Source: an uncultured cyanobacterium
GTDB lineage: Bacteria > Cyanobacteriota > Cyanobacteriia > Cyanobacteriales > FACHB-T130
DNA: 64,000 nt
NCBI GenBank assembly: GCA_936920195.1
Contig: CAKZHE010000071.1
Coordinates: 1 to 64,000 of the forward strand
Direction of reading: 5' to 3'
Position 1 is the stretch's first letter. Each line of letters starts with the position of its first letter. Shown here in pieces: positions 3,402-43,019 of the stretch. The position numbers were made by a program, and so were the translations under genes. The notes below the pieces were generated by a model that had not been told where the DNA came from, ran no database searches, and saw nothing but the letters and a program-made list of their open reading frames with translations.

Positions 3402-4268
3402 ATGTATACGCCAGAATCGCAGCCTACTCCCACAGTAGTTCTGCCAACTATGTACGATCTTCCCAGTGAAAACCCGGAGGAACCCGGTTTGCCTGATATC
3501 TTTCATCTCTGGCAACCTCGTCTTTTGGATGATACTTGTCGCCCCCCCAATTATCCCCCAGAACGAGTATTTCTTGCCAGCGACTTGAATATTTACTACG
3601 ATTTGCAGCATCTCAATTGGTACAAGCGCCCAGATTGGTTTGTGGTGCTAGGAGTACCAAGATTTTACGAACAAAAAGATTTGCGGTTAAGTTATGTGAT
3701 TTGGCAAGAAAAAGTTAGTCCTTTAGTAATAGTGGAGTTGCTTTCAGAAGGCACAGAAGATGAAGATTTAGGAGAAACAACTGCCACAGTTAATCAGCCG
3801 CCCACCAAATGGGAAGTTTACGAGCAAATCTTGCAAGTTCCCTATTATTTTGTCTTTAGTCGCTACACCAACAAGCTGAGATTTTTTCGGCTAGTCAGGA
3901 ATCGCTACTCGGAGCAAATGTTAACTGAGCCGCGAGTGTGGATACCCGAATTGAAATTAGGTTTGGGATTATGGGTTGGAGCTTATAAAGATTGCAATCG
4001 CCCTTGGTTGCGCTGGTATGATGTTGATGGTAATTGGGTACTTAATTTAGAGGAAAGTCAAGAAAAGGAGCGTCTAGCAAAAGAAGCCGCATTAATCGAA
4101 AAGGAAACAGCATTAATTGAAAAGGAAAGAGAGCGACTAGAAAAGGAAAGAGAGCGACTAGAAAAGGAAAGGGAAAGGGTAGAAAAAGAAGCTGCCTTAG
4201 CCAAAGCTGCTCTTTTAGCCGAAAAACTCAGGGAAATGGGTATCGATCCCGATCAATTTTCAGTTTGA
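3402..4268 (+). CDS. Uma2-family PD-(D/E)XK endonuclease with coiled-coil tail
   Basis: 288 residues. The core (about 50-220) has the Uma2/DUF820 pattern: a segment RPDWFVVLGVP, then LVIVELLSEGTE with the acidic catalytic strand, then YYFVFSRYTNKLRFFRL. Residues about 225-280 are a charged coiled coil with the repeat LEKERER, and the protein ends in GIDPDQFS. Uma2 proteins are restriction-endonuclease-like and very abundant in cyanobacteria; their cellular role is poorly known. The 3' end overlaps the convergent dnaE-C gene by 16 bp. A second Uma2 gene of the same build lies at 32228-33109. Confidence 0.85.
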   Translation: MYTPESQPTPTVVLPTMYDLPSENPEEPGLPDIFHLWQPRLLDDTCRPPNYPPERVFLASDLNIYYDLQHLNWYKRPDWFVVLGVPRFYEQKDLRLSYVIWQEKVSPLVIVELLSEGTEDEDLGETTATVNQPPTKWEVYEQILQVPYYFVFSRYTNKLRFFRLVRNRYSEQMLTEPRVWIPELKLGLGLWVGAYKDCNRPWLRWYDVDGNWVLNLEESQEKERLAKEAALIEKETALIEKERERLEKERERLEKERERVEKEAALAKAALLAEKLREMGIDPDQFSV

Positions 4269-5647
4269 ATATAGGCAGAAAATCCTGCGTTTTTAATGGC
4301 TTCCACAGCGGCTTGGTAATTTTGTACCCAAAATTCCTTGCCAAACTCTACCGTCATTTGCTGTCGTTCGTCTGCTACAATTGCCATAACCGGAACATTA
4401 GCGATCGCGCTAGCGCGATCGCCTGATTGTTCTTTCAAAACAGCTTGTAGTTGGCGCATCAAATTTTCATTTTGCGCCCATTGGGGAGTTAATTGTAAAA
4501 CTACTAAATAATGGGTTTCGAGATCTTCGCTGCTCTCTTCATCATTATCTGCGACTGGGGTAATTGATTCTGCCGCTGCTAGCTGTTCTCTGGTGAGGAT
4601 TTTAATCTCTTCAACAATAATTTGCAAGCGATCGTCCTGCTTATCTACTTTACCTGTAATGATACTCGGTTGATCGGCAGTCAGAAATTCTTTCACAGTT
4701 TCATAGGTTTTCGGAAAAACTACAGCAGAAGCTCTCCCGCTCAGATCTTCTAGTTGCAGAATTGCCATAGAATCGCCTTTTTTCGTCACCACCTGCTTAA
4801 TTTCTACCAACATTGCCCCCACACTAATTTTTGCTTTCGATTTCTGTTCCTCCAATTGACTCAAATTAATAATTTCCAAACCCAAATTCTGGGCTACCTT
4901 CTCCATAAATTTTAAAGGATGTTCTGAAACATAAAAGCCCAATAATTCCTTTTCAAATAGTAACTTCTCCTGGGGAGCAAAATCCTTCACCTCTGGCAAC
5001 TTCGGAGCCGGAGTTCTCACCGCAGCCAAATCGAAAAGCGTGGGTTGATTATCAACTTCTTTACTTTTTTGTACCCAGCTAATTACCGAAGGTAAATATT
5101 CAACTAATTGCTGGCGATTGGGCGAGATTTTATCAAAAGCGCCACTTTTTACCAAAGCTTCTAAAGCGCGACTATTGACAGCACGGAGATCGACGCGATC
5201 GCACAATTCCGCCAAAGAAGTAAAATTACCATCCTGGCGGCGAGCTTTCAAAATACATTCAATTGCCCCTTCCCCCACATTCTTAATTGCCGAAAGTCCA
5301 AATAAAATCTTGCCATCATCCGGAGTAAAATGTATTTCCGAACGATTAATATCCGGTCCCTCCACCGGAATCTTCGGAACCATATTCTGGCAATTAGTGA
5401 TATATTTCTGTACCTTATCCTGATCGCCGCTATTTGCCGTTAGCAGCGCCGCCATATATTCCACCGGATAATTAGCTTTTAAATAGGCAGTTTGGTAAGT
5501 GACATAGGCGTAGGCAGTAGAATGGGATTTATTAAAGCAATTAGAAGCCACTAATCCATTCTCTAGAATGAAGTTATGATCGCGCTCAACGCCGATGTCA
5601 TAAACTTTTTCAATTCCCAACAATTTTTTGCTAACAATTTTAACCAC
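4253..5647 (-). CDS. dnaE-C: DNA polymerase III alpha subunit, C-terminal half, with Int-C of the DnaE split intein
   Basis: 464 residues. The first 36 are the C-terminal intein fragment (motif VERDHNF, terminal Asn36). The C-extein follows, beginning CFNKSHSTAYAY with Cys37 as the +1 nucleophile (TGC at 5539-5537). The remaining 428 residues carry the polymerase C-terminal region, including an OB-fold-like segment (about 270-350). The GTG at 5647 is chosen because it aligns with the usual Int-C start and has GAGGAG at 5661-5656, 8 nt upstream. After trans-splicing the product joins dnaE-N to give about 1204 residues, normal for DnaE. dnaE-N lies only 175 bp upstream on the same strand, which is the odd feature here. 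Confidence 0.97.
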   Translation of the reverse strand: MVKIVSKKLLGIEKVYDIGVERDHNFILENGLVASNCFNKSHSTAYAYVTYQTAYLKANYPVEYMAALLTANSGDQDKVQKYITNCQNMVPKIPVEGPDINRSEIHFTPDDGKILFGLSAIKNVGEGAIECILKARRQDGNFTSLAELCDRVDLRAVNSRALEALVKSGAFDKISPNRQQLVEYLPSVISWVQKSKEVDNQPTLFDLAAVRTPAPKLPEVKDFAPQEKLLFEKELLGFYVSEHPLKFMEKVAQNLGLEIINLSQLEEQKSKAKISVGAMLVEIKQVVTKKGDSMAILQLEDLSGRASAVVFPKTYETVKEFLTADQPSIITGKVDKQDDRLQIIVEEIKILTREQLAAAESITPVADNDEESSEDLETHYLVVLQLTPQWAQNENLMRQLQAVLKEQSGDRASAIANVPVMAIVADERQQMTVEFGKEFWVQNYQAAVEAIKNAGFSAYIQTEN

Positions 5648-5699
5648 GTCGATAACTCCTCAAAATTTCCTGCTTTTTTCTTCATTTAGTTTCCTATAC

Positions 5700-5788
5700 A
5701 GGACTTACGCAACGCCTCTATCAGTAGGGTGTGTTAGCGCAGCGTAACGCACCATCAACTCTATATCTAGAGTGACTGCGTAAGTCCT
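5700..5788. mobile_element. MITE-like palindromic element between dnaE-N and dnaE-C
   Basis: An 89 bp element bounded by perfect 12 bp terminal inverted repeats (AGGACTTACGCA / TGCGTAAGTCCT), with no coding capacity. It fills about half the gap between the two dnaE halves. A 116 bp relative with identical ends lies at 42904-43019, a shorter 57 bp one at 58351-58407, and a single end near 9255. The shared ends with different interiors fit a non-autonomous transposon family (inference). Confidence 0.8.
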
Positions 5789-5822
5789 ACTATAGTCAAG
5801 CTGAGATTTCATTTTAGATCCG

Positions 5823-8453
5823 TTAATCAAATTTTGTTTGTTTTAAATTTAACTCTTTTTCAAAAATCTCTTCGATTGGCAACATCTTGCCATCATCTGT
5901 CATAAACTTATGGTCTTTTGTAGCTCGAATTATTGAGCCATCCTCAAGACAATATTCAAAAACCTCCTGTTCCCCGCGTTCGTGCCATTGGGCAATTGGT
6001 TGAGTATAAACATAACCATTACTATCAACACTGTAAACTGTACACTCAATTCTCTCCTCAACAATTTTGCCAATGGGCATTAAACCATATTCCAGGGTCA
6101 GGATTTGGGTACTATAGCTTAAACAGTATTCTGCGAATAAAACCATTTGTTCAAACAATGTTTCGGCAACTTTCTTCGTTACCCCATTTTTAGTTGCCCC
6201 TTCAATAAAAGTTTCCCGTTGCTTCTGCATTTCCTCAGCTTTCTTTTTTCCCATGGCCCGCCTCAGTAAATCCGCTTGCCCCAAGGAATAACCCGCTAAA
6301 TCCTGAGCAATTTTCATAATTTGCTCTTGATAAACCAACACTCCATAGGTTTCTTTGAGAATTGGTTCTAAAATTGGATGTTCGTAAACAGGATCTTCTA
6401 TTCCATGTTTGCGATTGATAAATTTCGGAATTAGTCCTGCATCTAAAGGTCCTGGTCGATAAAGAGCTAAAATAGAAGAAATATCTTCAATGCAGGATGG
6501 CTTGAGTTTTTCTACTACATCTTTCATCCCCGAAGATTCTAGCTGAAATATGCCTTCTAGATCGCCTTTGGCTAAAACTTTATAAGTTTTTTCCACCTCT
6601 TGATTGATTTTCTTAATTTCGCCCTTGGCTAATATTTTCTGTGCCTTTCTTTCTCCCAGGGTGATTTGATCGGGATCGATTTTAATATTTTGGGTTTGTT
6701 GAACCAAATCAATGGCATTCTGCACCATCGTCAGATTTTTCAAACCTAAAAAATCCATCTTTAACAAACCCAGAGATTCCAAATCCTCCATAAAATACTG
6801 AGTAATCACCGAACCATCATTATTCTTTTGCAGCGGCACAATTTCATCTAAAGGTTCCGCCGAAATTACTACCCCTGCCGCATGAACGCCAAAGGTTTTA
6901 TTTGTGCCTTCAATCCGCATTGCCATATCCAACCAGCGGCGCACAATGGGATCTTGATCGTATTTTTCTTTAAATTCCGGTGCGGGAGTTTGATCGGAAA
7001 CCATCACTTTCAACTTAGTTGGTTTCCCGCGCATAACCGGAATCATTTTTGCCATTTTGTCCGCATCGCCGTAGGGAATTTTTAACACCCTGGCAACGTC
7101 TTTTAAAACTGATTTGGAAGTTAAACGGTTAAAAGTAATAATTTGGGCAACTCGTTCTGTGCCGTATTTTTCGGTCACATACTGAATGACTTCATCTCGT
7201 CTTTCAATGCAGAAGTCCGTATCAATATCCGGCATGGACTTGCGTTCTGGATTCAAAAACCGCTCAAACAGCAAGCCATGATGGACAGGATCAATATTAG
7301 TAATCCCCATAGTATAGGCCACTAGGGAACCCGCCGCACTGCCTCGACCGGGACCAACGGGAATGTTATGATCTCTAGCGTATTTAATGTAATCCCAAAC
7401 CACTAAAAAGTAAGTTGAAAATCCCATCCGCTCAATCATCTTCAATTCGTAATCTAAGCGCTGTTGATAAACGGGATCGATTTCGCTAAAAGACTGACAT
7501 TTCAACTTTTCCATCAGTCCTTTACGAGCAATTTCTTGGACGTAGGTATCGGCGTTATGGGTGGGGGGAATGGGATGATAATCGGGAATGCGCGGCTCGC
7601 CGAGGATTTTATAACGTTCAATTTTATCAGCAACTTCTAAAGTGTTGGCGATCGCTTCCTGAATCACTTCATCCTCCAGGTGATCTCGAAACAGTTGCGC
7701 CATTTCCTCGGCAGACTTCAAATATTCCGTGCCGCTGTAACGCATCCGCTTTTGCTCTTCAATCAATTGTCCAGTTTGAATGCACAATAAAGCATCGTGA
7801 GCTTCTACATCGGAACAGGAGGTGAAGTGGGAATCGTTGGTAGCAATAACTTTAATTGCTAACTCTTGGGCAATCTTGACAATTTCCACATTAACCATTC
7901 TGTCCTCGGCATAACCGTGGTCTTGAATTTCTAGATAATAATCATCTTTAAAGACTTTTTTGTACCATTGAGCGCATTCCCTGGCTTCGGCAAATTTCGC
8001 TTGCAAAATCAATTGGGGAACTTTCCCGGCTCGACAACCGCTAGTCACAATTAAACCTTCGTGGTATTTTTCCAATAATTCTTGATTAATGCAAGGACGG
8101 GAAAATAGTCCTTTCCCTTGTACGCCCTGAAGATGGGAAATAGTAGTTAATTTTACCAAGTTTTTATAGCCTTGATTATTTTTAGCTAAAACCACTTGAT
8201 GATATTTGCGGCGGCGACGTTCTTGGATGGTAATATCGCCATCCACCACATACATTTCGTTGCCAATAATCGGCTTAATGGTTTTATCGCGACAAATCTT
8301 AATTAACTCAATTGCCCCATACATGACACCATGATCGGTAAGGGCGATCGCAGGCATTCCTAATTCCATTGCCCGTTGAATTAAATCGGGCAATTGGCTC
8401 GCACCATCCAGTAAGCTGTAATCGCTGTGAGTATGAAGGCCAACAAAAGACAT
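5823..8453 (-). CDS. dnaE-N: DNA polymerase III alpha subunit, N-terminal half, with Int-N of the DnaE split intein
   Basis: 876 residues. It starts with the PHP domain ([17 protein letters not shown]) and continues through the polymerase palm (PDIDTDFC carries catalytic aspartates) and fingers. The N-extein ends ...FAEY776. Int-N is residues 777-876, starting with Cys777 (TGT at 6125-6123). It has the block-B TKDH motif and a variable tail ending QTKFD, 100 residues in all, about the length of other cyanobacterial DnaE Int-N fragments. Without splicing to dnaE-C no complete replicase would form. The ATG at 8453 is directly followed by the PHP motif. A GGAGTT-type ribosome site may lie in CTCCTATG's complement just upstream. 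Confidence 0.97.
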
Positions 8454-42903: not shown

Positions 42904-43019
42904 AGGACTTACGCATTTACTCCGCATATAGCGTTGATGGTGCGTTACGCTGTCGCTTTAGCGTTAGCCATGCCGATAGGCTATACACACCCTACTAATA
43001 GAGGCATTGCGTAAGTCCT
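42904..43019. mobile_element. MITE-like palindromic element (116 bp copy)
   Basis: Terminal inverted repeats AGGACTTACGCA / TGCGTAAGTCCT are identical to those of the element between the dnaE halves. The interior has GCGTTGATGGTGCGTTACGC and CACACCCTACTAATAGAGG, the reverse complement of parts of the 5700-5788 interior, so it lies in the opposite orientation. The 364 bp gap 42807-43170 otherwise holds GTTGGGTTG/CAACCCAACC repeats and a STRR tract. Confidence 0.8.

Follow-up and report, generated by a model that had tools for sequence, protein, structure and literature searches.

What lies between the two halves of a split polymerase gene, and does it tell anything about how the gene came to be split? 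The question is raised by a dnaE locus of an uncultured cyanobacterium (assembly GCA_936920195.1, contig CAKZHE010000071.1) within the 64,000-nucleotide stretch analyzed here, positions 1 to 64,000 of the forward strand, hereafter called the window. The alpha subunit of DNA polymerase III is encoded in the window by two neighboring open reading frames (ORFs), dnaE-N and dnaE-C, which carry the N-half (IntN) and the C-half (IntC) of an intein. The short spacer between them is largely filled by a repeat that resembles a miniature inverted-repeat transposable element (MITE). This spacer very probably holds the remains of a free-standing gene for a LAGLIDADG homing endonuclease (HEN), which would once have lain between the intein halves and was later invaded by the MITE. 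The features concerned are the following.

4253 to 5647, minus strand: dnaE-C, intein C-half (IntC, about 5540 to 5647) and DnaE C-part, from the ORF, TIGR01443 and the sequence
5648 to 5693, minus strand: remaining HEN remnant, in which the 5' end continues (GGAAACTAAA) and is followed by the HEN 3' end; the last 30 nt match at 22/30
5694 to 5698, unstranded: target-site duplication CTATA of the MITE, low-coordinate copy
5699 to 5789, unstranded: MITE-like repeat with 12-bp terminal inverted repeats at 5700-5711 and 5777-5788, counting one base beyond each end
5790 to 5794, unstranded: target-site duplication CTATA of the MITE, high-coordinate copy
5790 to 5812, minus strand: 5' remnant of the lost HEN gene (ATG ... 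LDY, compare the HEN start MYLDYRKL), 24-nt match at 19/24
5823 to 8453, minus strand: dnaE-N, N-part of DNA polymerase III alpha and intein N-half (IntN, about 5826 to 6125), from the ORF, NF007079 and TIGR01445

The spacer sits exactly between the intein halves, as had been stated in the initial annotation. Its 175 bp (5648-5822) are set by the stop codon of dnaE-N (5823-5825, minus strand) and by the GTG start codon of dnaE-C (5647-5645, minus strand), upstream of which GAGGAG is found. The intein ends are genuine, with TIGR01445 (intein_Nterm) and TIGR01443 (intein_Cterm) both above their cut-offs in the window halves, and IntN and IntC motifs carried at the DnaE site by two separate ORFs identify a split intein of the DnaE type. 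The two halves probably still splice in trans. No intact endonuclease ORF was found between them, remnants only, and no HEN match was obtained in the source genome; the longest stop-free run in the three coding-strand frames of the spacer is 38 codons.

In relatives, the same place is occupied by a gene. Among the matches listed for 291 genomes of the order, the halves lie on one strand within 10 kb in at least 23 genomes besides the window, and in one frame in at least two further genomes (hand counts from the search listings). The linked loci were hand-picked, partly from the best listed matches and partly from 190 named loci, of which the best 80 were considered, and the counts of states given here are therefore not frequencies. 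Of the first 20 loci, 10 have 773-782 bp separating the dnaE-N stop from the start of dnaE-C, all of it taken up by one ORF of 257-260 codons. Altogether 16 distinct spacers of 747-782 bp hold one such ORF (231-263 codons as called by the script, about 259 amino acids). This set includes L032, whose ORF is truncated at the 3' end; the script assigned a downstream ATG in L032, L058, L093 and L110, although in L093 and L110 the frame is open from the usual start. The ORF start adjoins or slightly enters the end of dnaE-N, and the stop overlaps the dnaE-C start by 8 nt in 15 of the 16. A HEN match, remnants included, was found in 21 of 291 genomes of the order sample and in 5 of 386 of the phylum sample, one of these five being a remnant. 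The same arrangement, with the HEN frameshifted near its end, is present in G510, a genome of another order.

The spacer ORF of the relatives is a helix-turn-helix (HTH), double-LAGLIDADG homing endonuclease gene under purifying selection, whose product is predicted to cleave DNA. The protein combines an HTH-like N-part, for which only weak Pfam matches were obtained, with two LAGLIDADG motifs, and LAGLIDADG_3 (PF14528) scored above its cut-off over two stretches in all three HEN proteins tested. Residues D82 and D173, which we take to be the catalytic acids, are invariant in six of six proteins; in the L044 protein FDCDG replaces FDGDG, the aspartates being retained. The best structural model reached a mean pLDDT of 72 (the other four 35-52), and its best PDB matches with Foldseek are LAGLIDADG enzymes (top E value 8.9e-9). 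A PDB search with the HEN sequence gave 2dch as relevant match (E value 0.0011), and nine others, with E values from 0.073 to 0.95, were taken as chance. The ratio of nonsynonymous to synonymous substitution rates (dN/dS) is 0.087-0.223 with a median of 0.148 (30 of 120 pairs, those with dS<1), and the gene has thus been kept working. A search with Rfam gave nothing above the cut-offs in six HEN loci and the window, so by this test the cyanobacterial cassette is not a group I intron.

Removal of the MITE and of one CTATA copy from the window leaves a spacer of 79 bp. Its start reads ATG..LDYRKL, like the HEN gene start MYLDYRKL, and the two flanks of the MITE are contiguous in the HEN genes of relatives. 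At the other end, the peptide in the HEN frame is RKKQEILRSYRRG followed by a stop, and runs 8 nt into dnaE-C, as in relatives. With the position held, the 5' piece (24 nt spanning the empty site) is identical at 19 of 24 nt, the best of 8000 random window segments reaching 18, and the 3' piece at 22 of 30 nt, none of 105 controls carrying AGGAG in the same position doing better than 19. At least the 3' end of the HEN is also recognizable in five of the eight short spacers outside the window (Limnofasciculus L047, Okeania L068 and L149, L154, and Lyngbya L115). The initial annotation had proposed that an endonuclease domain was lost at this place. The loss itself is borne out by the HEN gene residue on both sides of the MITE and by the intact gene that fills the spacer of relatives; what disappeared was a separate ORF and not a domain. 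On the other side of the balance, the query stretches of the position-anchored tests were picked after the match had been seen, and in unrestricted local alignments the remnants are only modestly ahead of shuffles (1 and 3 of 300 reach them), the MITE itself being reached by 8 of 300 when used as control in the same alignment. A HEN trace is also absent from three of the eight other HEN-less spacers, L042, L123 and L132.

The present state of the window could have been reached in three steps. A three-gene cassette, IntN - HEN - IntC, would have occupied the dnaE motif between EY and CFNKSH. About 690 bp of the HEN would then have been lost in the source lineage, leaving the first and last codons, the latter being probably kept because they contain the ribosome-binding site of dnaE-C. 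Finally, a MITE-like repeat from a family that multiplied in the source genome would have inserted in the HEN remnant and duplicated CTATA. The last two steps may have occurred in the reverse order.

Other loci display further states of the cassette. HENs broken by stops or shifts are found in L072, L069 and L160. In G263 (L216, spacer of 3305 bp) the HEN is split by an insertion flanked by TA, which contains two IS630-like ORFs and a nested 484-aa IS66-like ORF (IS, insertion sequence, the names being given from reading the ORFs). Seven loci (L021, L037, L049, L054, L055, L056 and L118) carry contiguous DnaE inteins that apparently arose by re-fusion; six distinct ones fall at three places in the intein tree, each beside HEN-bearing split inteins. 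This view of them comes from L118, in which the position of the former ATG start reads ACG in an otherwise similar ribosome-binding context, retained as codons. In L021 and L054, CATGTTAAA is read at the place where split relatives read ATGGTTAAA. For the contiguous inteins other than L118, a contiguous ancestral state would be the alternative. In the Planktothrix-type genomes G125, G189 and G272 the dnaE halves are apart, but dnaE-C is still preceded by the HEN 3' end, a link between the far-apart form and the cassette. No HEN 5' remnant rose above noise behind the 67 dnaE-N loci whose stretch has no linked dnaE-C (some genomes being represented twice), except in L166, which is the G263 cassette ended by the locus boundary. 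Genome G205 was considered as a dislocation within the HEN, and hence as evidence of unlinking, and was discarded: its contigs break in an apparent group II intron with a maturase/HNH ORF, from which the intron label derives. The HEN of G205 (end of L280 and positions 1-892 of L281) seems to be interrupted by this intron at about residue 100, the join of the two contigs being inferred. This would give a nesting of an intron in an endonuclease gene in a split intein in dnaE.

The split DnaE intein is best understood as a mobile cassette that bears a HEN and goes through a homing cycle, of which the window would be a decayed copy. We read it so because HEN-bearing, HEN-decayed, HEN-less, apparently re-fused and far-apart states exist, because presence is patchy and because trees conflict. 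In this cycle the HEN would cut an intein-less dnaE and the whole cassette would be copied in. The patchiness is evident within a single Microcoleus-type genus, represented by 29 genomes among which record titles vary: 14 bear the intein (13 split, 1 re-fused), 14 have an uninterrupted dnaE and one gave no match. The 14 intein genomes comprise seven with an intact HEN, one with a decayed HEN, one with a HEN split by an IS, four with short spacers without intact HEN, and the re-fused one. Pairs of opposite state share 95.0-96.8% dnaE identity; G263/G037 and G280/G290 are sisters in both trees, and for G165/G109 this is seen in the FastTree tree alone. The tree of 25 host genomes, built without G300 and G301 (intein-less), G293 (no match) and G295 (dnaE-C incomplete in the stretch), requires seven state changes, or eight with the outgroup, and at least five are forced by supported branches. 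The assembly of G301 contains both an intein-less dnaE and an intein piece with HEN (contigs C393 and C553, loci L170 and L181), a double state due either to a mixed population or to contamination. For eight strains with a full-length HEN region, the cassette data reject the host tree (approximately unbiased test, p-AU 2.6e-10) and the host data reject the cassette tree (p-AU 3.6e-48). G165 and G263 are 95.5% identical in IntN versus 86.1% in dnaE, and G280 and G006 are 93.3% identical in the HEN versus 87.3% in dnaE. The reverse pattern is seen for G208 and G178, with 89.3% in IntN versus 96.5% in dnaE.

The window intein shares a clade (95/87, bootstrap not settled) with four cassettes that come from three other families; the HEN is intact in three of these cassettes and broken in the fourth. 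In the five other genomes of its own family, matches are confined to the DnaE portion of the query and lie in open frames of 1185-1240 codons; the site is uninterrupted and the intein absent. Considering this grouping with cassettes of other families and the intein-less family genomes, it is likelier that the window cassette was received horizontally and that its HEN was lost later.

Several points weigh against such mobility. Retention in the source genome with losses in the five family members could be an alternative history for the window. Intein state is unclustered on the genus tree, 199 of 500 shuffles being equally low, which makes the counts of gains and losses uncertain. Co-conversion of flanks, which homing should leave behind, gives a weak signal: a slight difference is confined to the 60 nt directly before the site, with values of 0.885 for ++, 0.843 for +- and 0.826 for -- comparisons. 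As to a vector, IntN was unmatched in IMG/VR and plasmids (phage records were not searched for IntN), and for the HEN only distant LAGLIDADG relatives were found in IMG/VR, at seven loci with 25-33% identity. Finally, the nuclease activity of the HEN and the splicing activity of the intein are predictions from sequence.

A strictly vertical history would make the cassette an inheritance from a cyanobacterial ancestor followed by many losses, with the HEN as a relic and nothing mobile today. This agrees with the view of the DnaE intein as a once-gained phylogenetic marker with convergent losses, given in PMC5029880, and some family groups do stay together in the intein tree. However, it is at odds with the strong conflict between cassette and host trees and with the mismatches in both directions between the identities of IntN or HEN and those of dnaE. 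Moreover, an essential gene is not easily made whole again by an exact loss, and the HEN is maintained under selection. We thus consider vertical inheritance unlikely.

The mobile cassette, if such it is, may have had a history outside inteins. Relatives of the HEN were sought in phages, plasmids, IMG/VR and cyanobacterial genomes, and in-frame intein relatives may exist elsewhere. The best plasmid match, on the Brevibacillus megaplasmid CP139434 (33.6% identity), lies between two dnaE pieces, and the Jeotgalibacillus megaplasmid CP009417 encodes a homologous HTH-LAGLIDADG enzyme (26.4% identity). In all five contexts read (the best 2 of 8 plasmid records and the three best-ranked of 142 phage records, LW81 being counted once), the enzyme is located between DNA polymerase pieces. 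The break in Brevibacillus falls downstream of the cyanobacterial intein site by about 5 nt, the exon ends being read by eye, and its group I intron match is weak (34.9 bits, below the cut-off of 50; E value 1.5e-5). In Jeotgalibacillus a group I intron above the cut-off (63.4 bits) is found at the same DnaE motif. The break in Lactococcus phage LW81 is a few codons upstream and gave no Rfam match, and in the remaining two contexts the break is elsewhere in dnaE. The megaplasmid enzymes of these Bacillota thus resemble the cyanobacterial HEN in being homologous HTH-LAGLIDADG proteins whose genes lie at the same DnaE motif or only a few nt from it. They differ in occurring with an RNA intron (above the Rfam cut-off in one case and below it in the other) and not with an intein. 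This suggests that a dnaE-cutting enzyme may have moved between RNA intron and intein and may have split the intein by its insertion.

From this a fuller history can be put forward tentatively, as a serious possibility. A dnaE-cutting endonuclease gene, from a lineage that also occurs with group I introns at the same motif, would have split a contiguous intein, and the resulting IntN-HEN-IntC cassette would still home among filamentous cyanobacteria. Decay of the HEN would leave adjacent HEN-less halves, as in the window, re-fused contiguous inteins or the far-apart gene pairs familiar from textbooks.

An intein of G138 (L057) was considered as a different intein at the same site and was set aside, since it is located upstream, near AMGKKK. 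An endonuclease insertion of Alicyclobacillus phage MMB025 (L290, between AIG and KKQ) lies only a few residues apart from it. This region is perhaps a second hot spot of dnaE.

Split DnaE inteins of cyanobacteria, of the Ssp/Npu type, were reportedly described by Wu in 1998 and Caspi in 2003, and such inteins are widely used tools for protein ligation. The window intein has in common with them an IntN of about 100 aa, an IntC of 36 aa, an insertion between EY and CFN, and two polypeptides. It differs from them, as its relatives do, by the adjacency of the halves and, in the relatives, by the endonuclease ORF between these halves. The "fractured genes" of phage and metagenomic origin, mainly viral and with EDxHD (Vsr-like) endonucleases, are said to go back to Dassa et al. 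2009. As in those, a free-standing endonuclease gene separates the intein halves in L034-L036, L038-L041 and L043-L045, but here the gene is a cyanobacterial dnaE, the enzyme is of the HTH-LAGLIDADG type and the window copy is without enzyme. With an intact endonuclease ORF between intein halves, the arrangement of the relatives has the shape of a fractured gene, and the window no longer has this defining feature.

The homing cycle of inteins is outlined in PMC3229294. Empty-site, HEN-bearing, HEN-decayed and HEN-less states are likewise found here within one genus; the differences are that the intein is split and that re-fusion to one gene and separation of the genes look like additional exits. 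Two reviews trace split DnaE inteins to a contiguous intein that broke within its coding region or through a rearrangement of the genome; one of them, PMC5874633, has a contiguous intein split through genomic arrangements. PMC6390638 has a contiguous DnaE intein in Desulfonema. The accessible parts of PMC9403480 and PMC4031507 contain nothing on the linked dnaE form, and our literature search, whose scope excluded most subscription journals, found no report of a HEN between dnaE-N and dnaE-C. The linked, endonuclease-bearing and patchy form supplies an intermediate that had been missing and a cause of the split that can be tested. It further points to a mobile element that makes a three-gene operon of one essential gene, and to the reversal of this change. 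It also suggests that the split intein of the textbooks has been mobile and may in places be so still, and it offers new natural split inteins as well as a candidate sequence-specific nuclease against a bacterial replicase gene.

The MITE, by contrast, is ordinary, and the notable part of the window is the grave of a HEN in a likely mobile split-intein cassette. The initial annotation was right about the structure of the repeat: the core (5700-5788) is 89 bp long with perfect 12-bp inverted ends AGGACTTACGCA, which recur elsewhere in the window, although the longer palindrome arms are imperfect (21 nt, 81% complementary). The other copy is as follows.

42904 to 43019, unstranded: second copy of the repeat family, 116 bp, same ends, with a 5-bp target duplication TTTGA

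The 12-mer end has 440 exact occurrences in its own genome, where the reversed control has 0, and each of the other five family genomes has 14 to 27, so the repeat has multiplied in the source genome. The burst is genome-wide and includes the second window copy. Perfect 5-bp target duplications flank 13 of 21 copies (20 fetched stretches minus L196, which gave no pair, plus the two window copies), random flank pairing giving 0.67 on average. The element has terminal inverted repeats, a length below about 500 bp, no coding capacity, a target-site duplication and a high copy number, and in being short and ORF-less with such ends, duplications and many copies it agrees with cyanobacterial MITEs in general. 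A literature text search for the terminal sequence gave an unrelated Vibrio paper as sole match. The repeat is an ordinary MITE-like element and a late insertion. The possibility, raised early on, of a later insertion into a tolerant spacer is supported by the target duplication, by the collinearity of both flanks with the HEN 5' end and by the absence of the element from 35 of the 36 distinct spacers of up to 4 kb between linked dnaE halves, the window being the only one with it. Since the duplicated target lies within the first HEN codons, the MITE inserted into the HEN or its remnant.

It had also been proposed that the MITE may form a hairpin in a dicistronic transcript and set the ratio of dnaE-N to dnaE-C; it would then stand in for the tight HEN overlap that couples the genes in relatives. 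The spacer RNA indeed folds at -48.4 kcal/mol (z -2.8; 1 of 200 shuffles equally low), and in relatives the three ORFs abut or overlap, unlike in the window. However, any copy of the palindrome should fold likewise, and hundreds of its ends exist. No promoter-like or terminator-like site was found in the window spacer, and one borne by the MITE was likewise rejected. A regulatory role of this kind appears improbable.

Still less credible is that the 3' remnant is a Shine-Dalgarno region whose likeness to the HEN end is convergent. Selection acts in its own right on AGGAG and on the first codons of dnaE-C, and some dnaE-C genes far from dnaE-N read GSYRRG and a stop in the HEN frame (L051, L052, L064), yet none of the AGGAG controls reached the match of the 3' piece (19 at most), and a separate 5' remnant is present. 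That insertion of the MITE into a contiguous intein caused or fixed the split, for which its position exactly within the spacer may speak, has a negligible chance of being true, as the duplicated target is HEN and not intein sequence and as the stop and start that each half has of its own are common to MITE-less relatives. The related proposal that the MITE is a trace of what separated the halves falls with it: the 35 spacers lacking the element share the split, and the MITE is therefore unrelated to it. In the Microcoleus-type genus, the HEN-less spacers L042, L132 and L154 contain other palindromic sequences, of the GGTGCGTCGCCAT and GTGCGCACTGCGCACCCTA types, as expected for a tolerant place.
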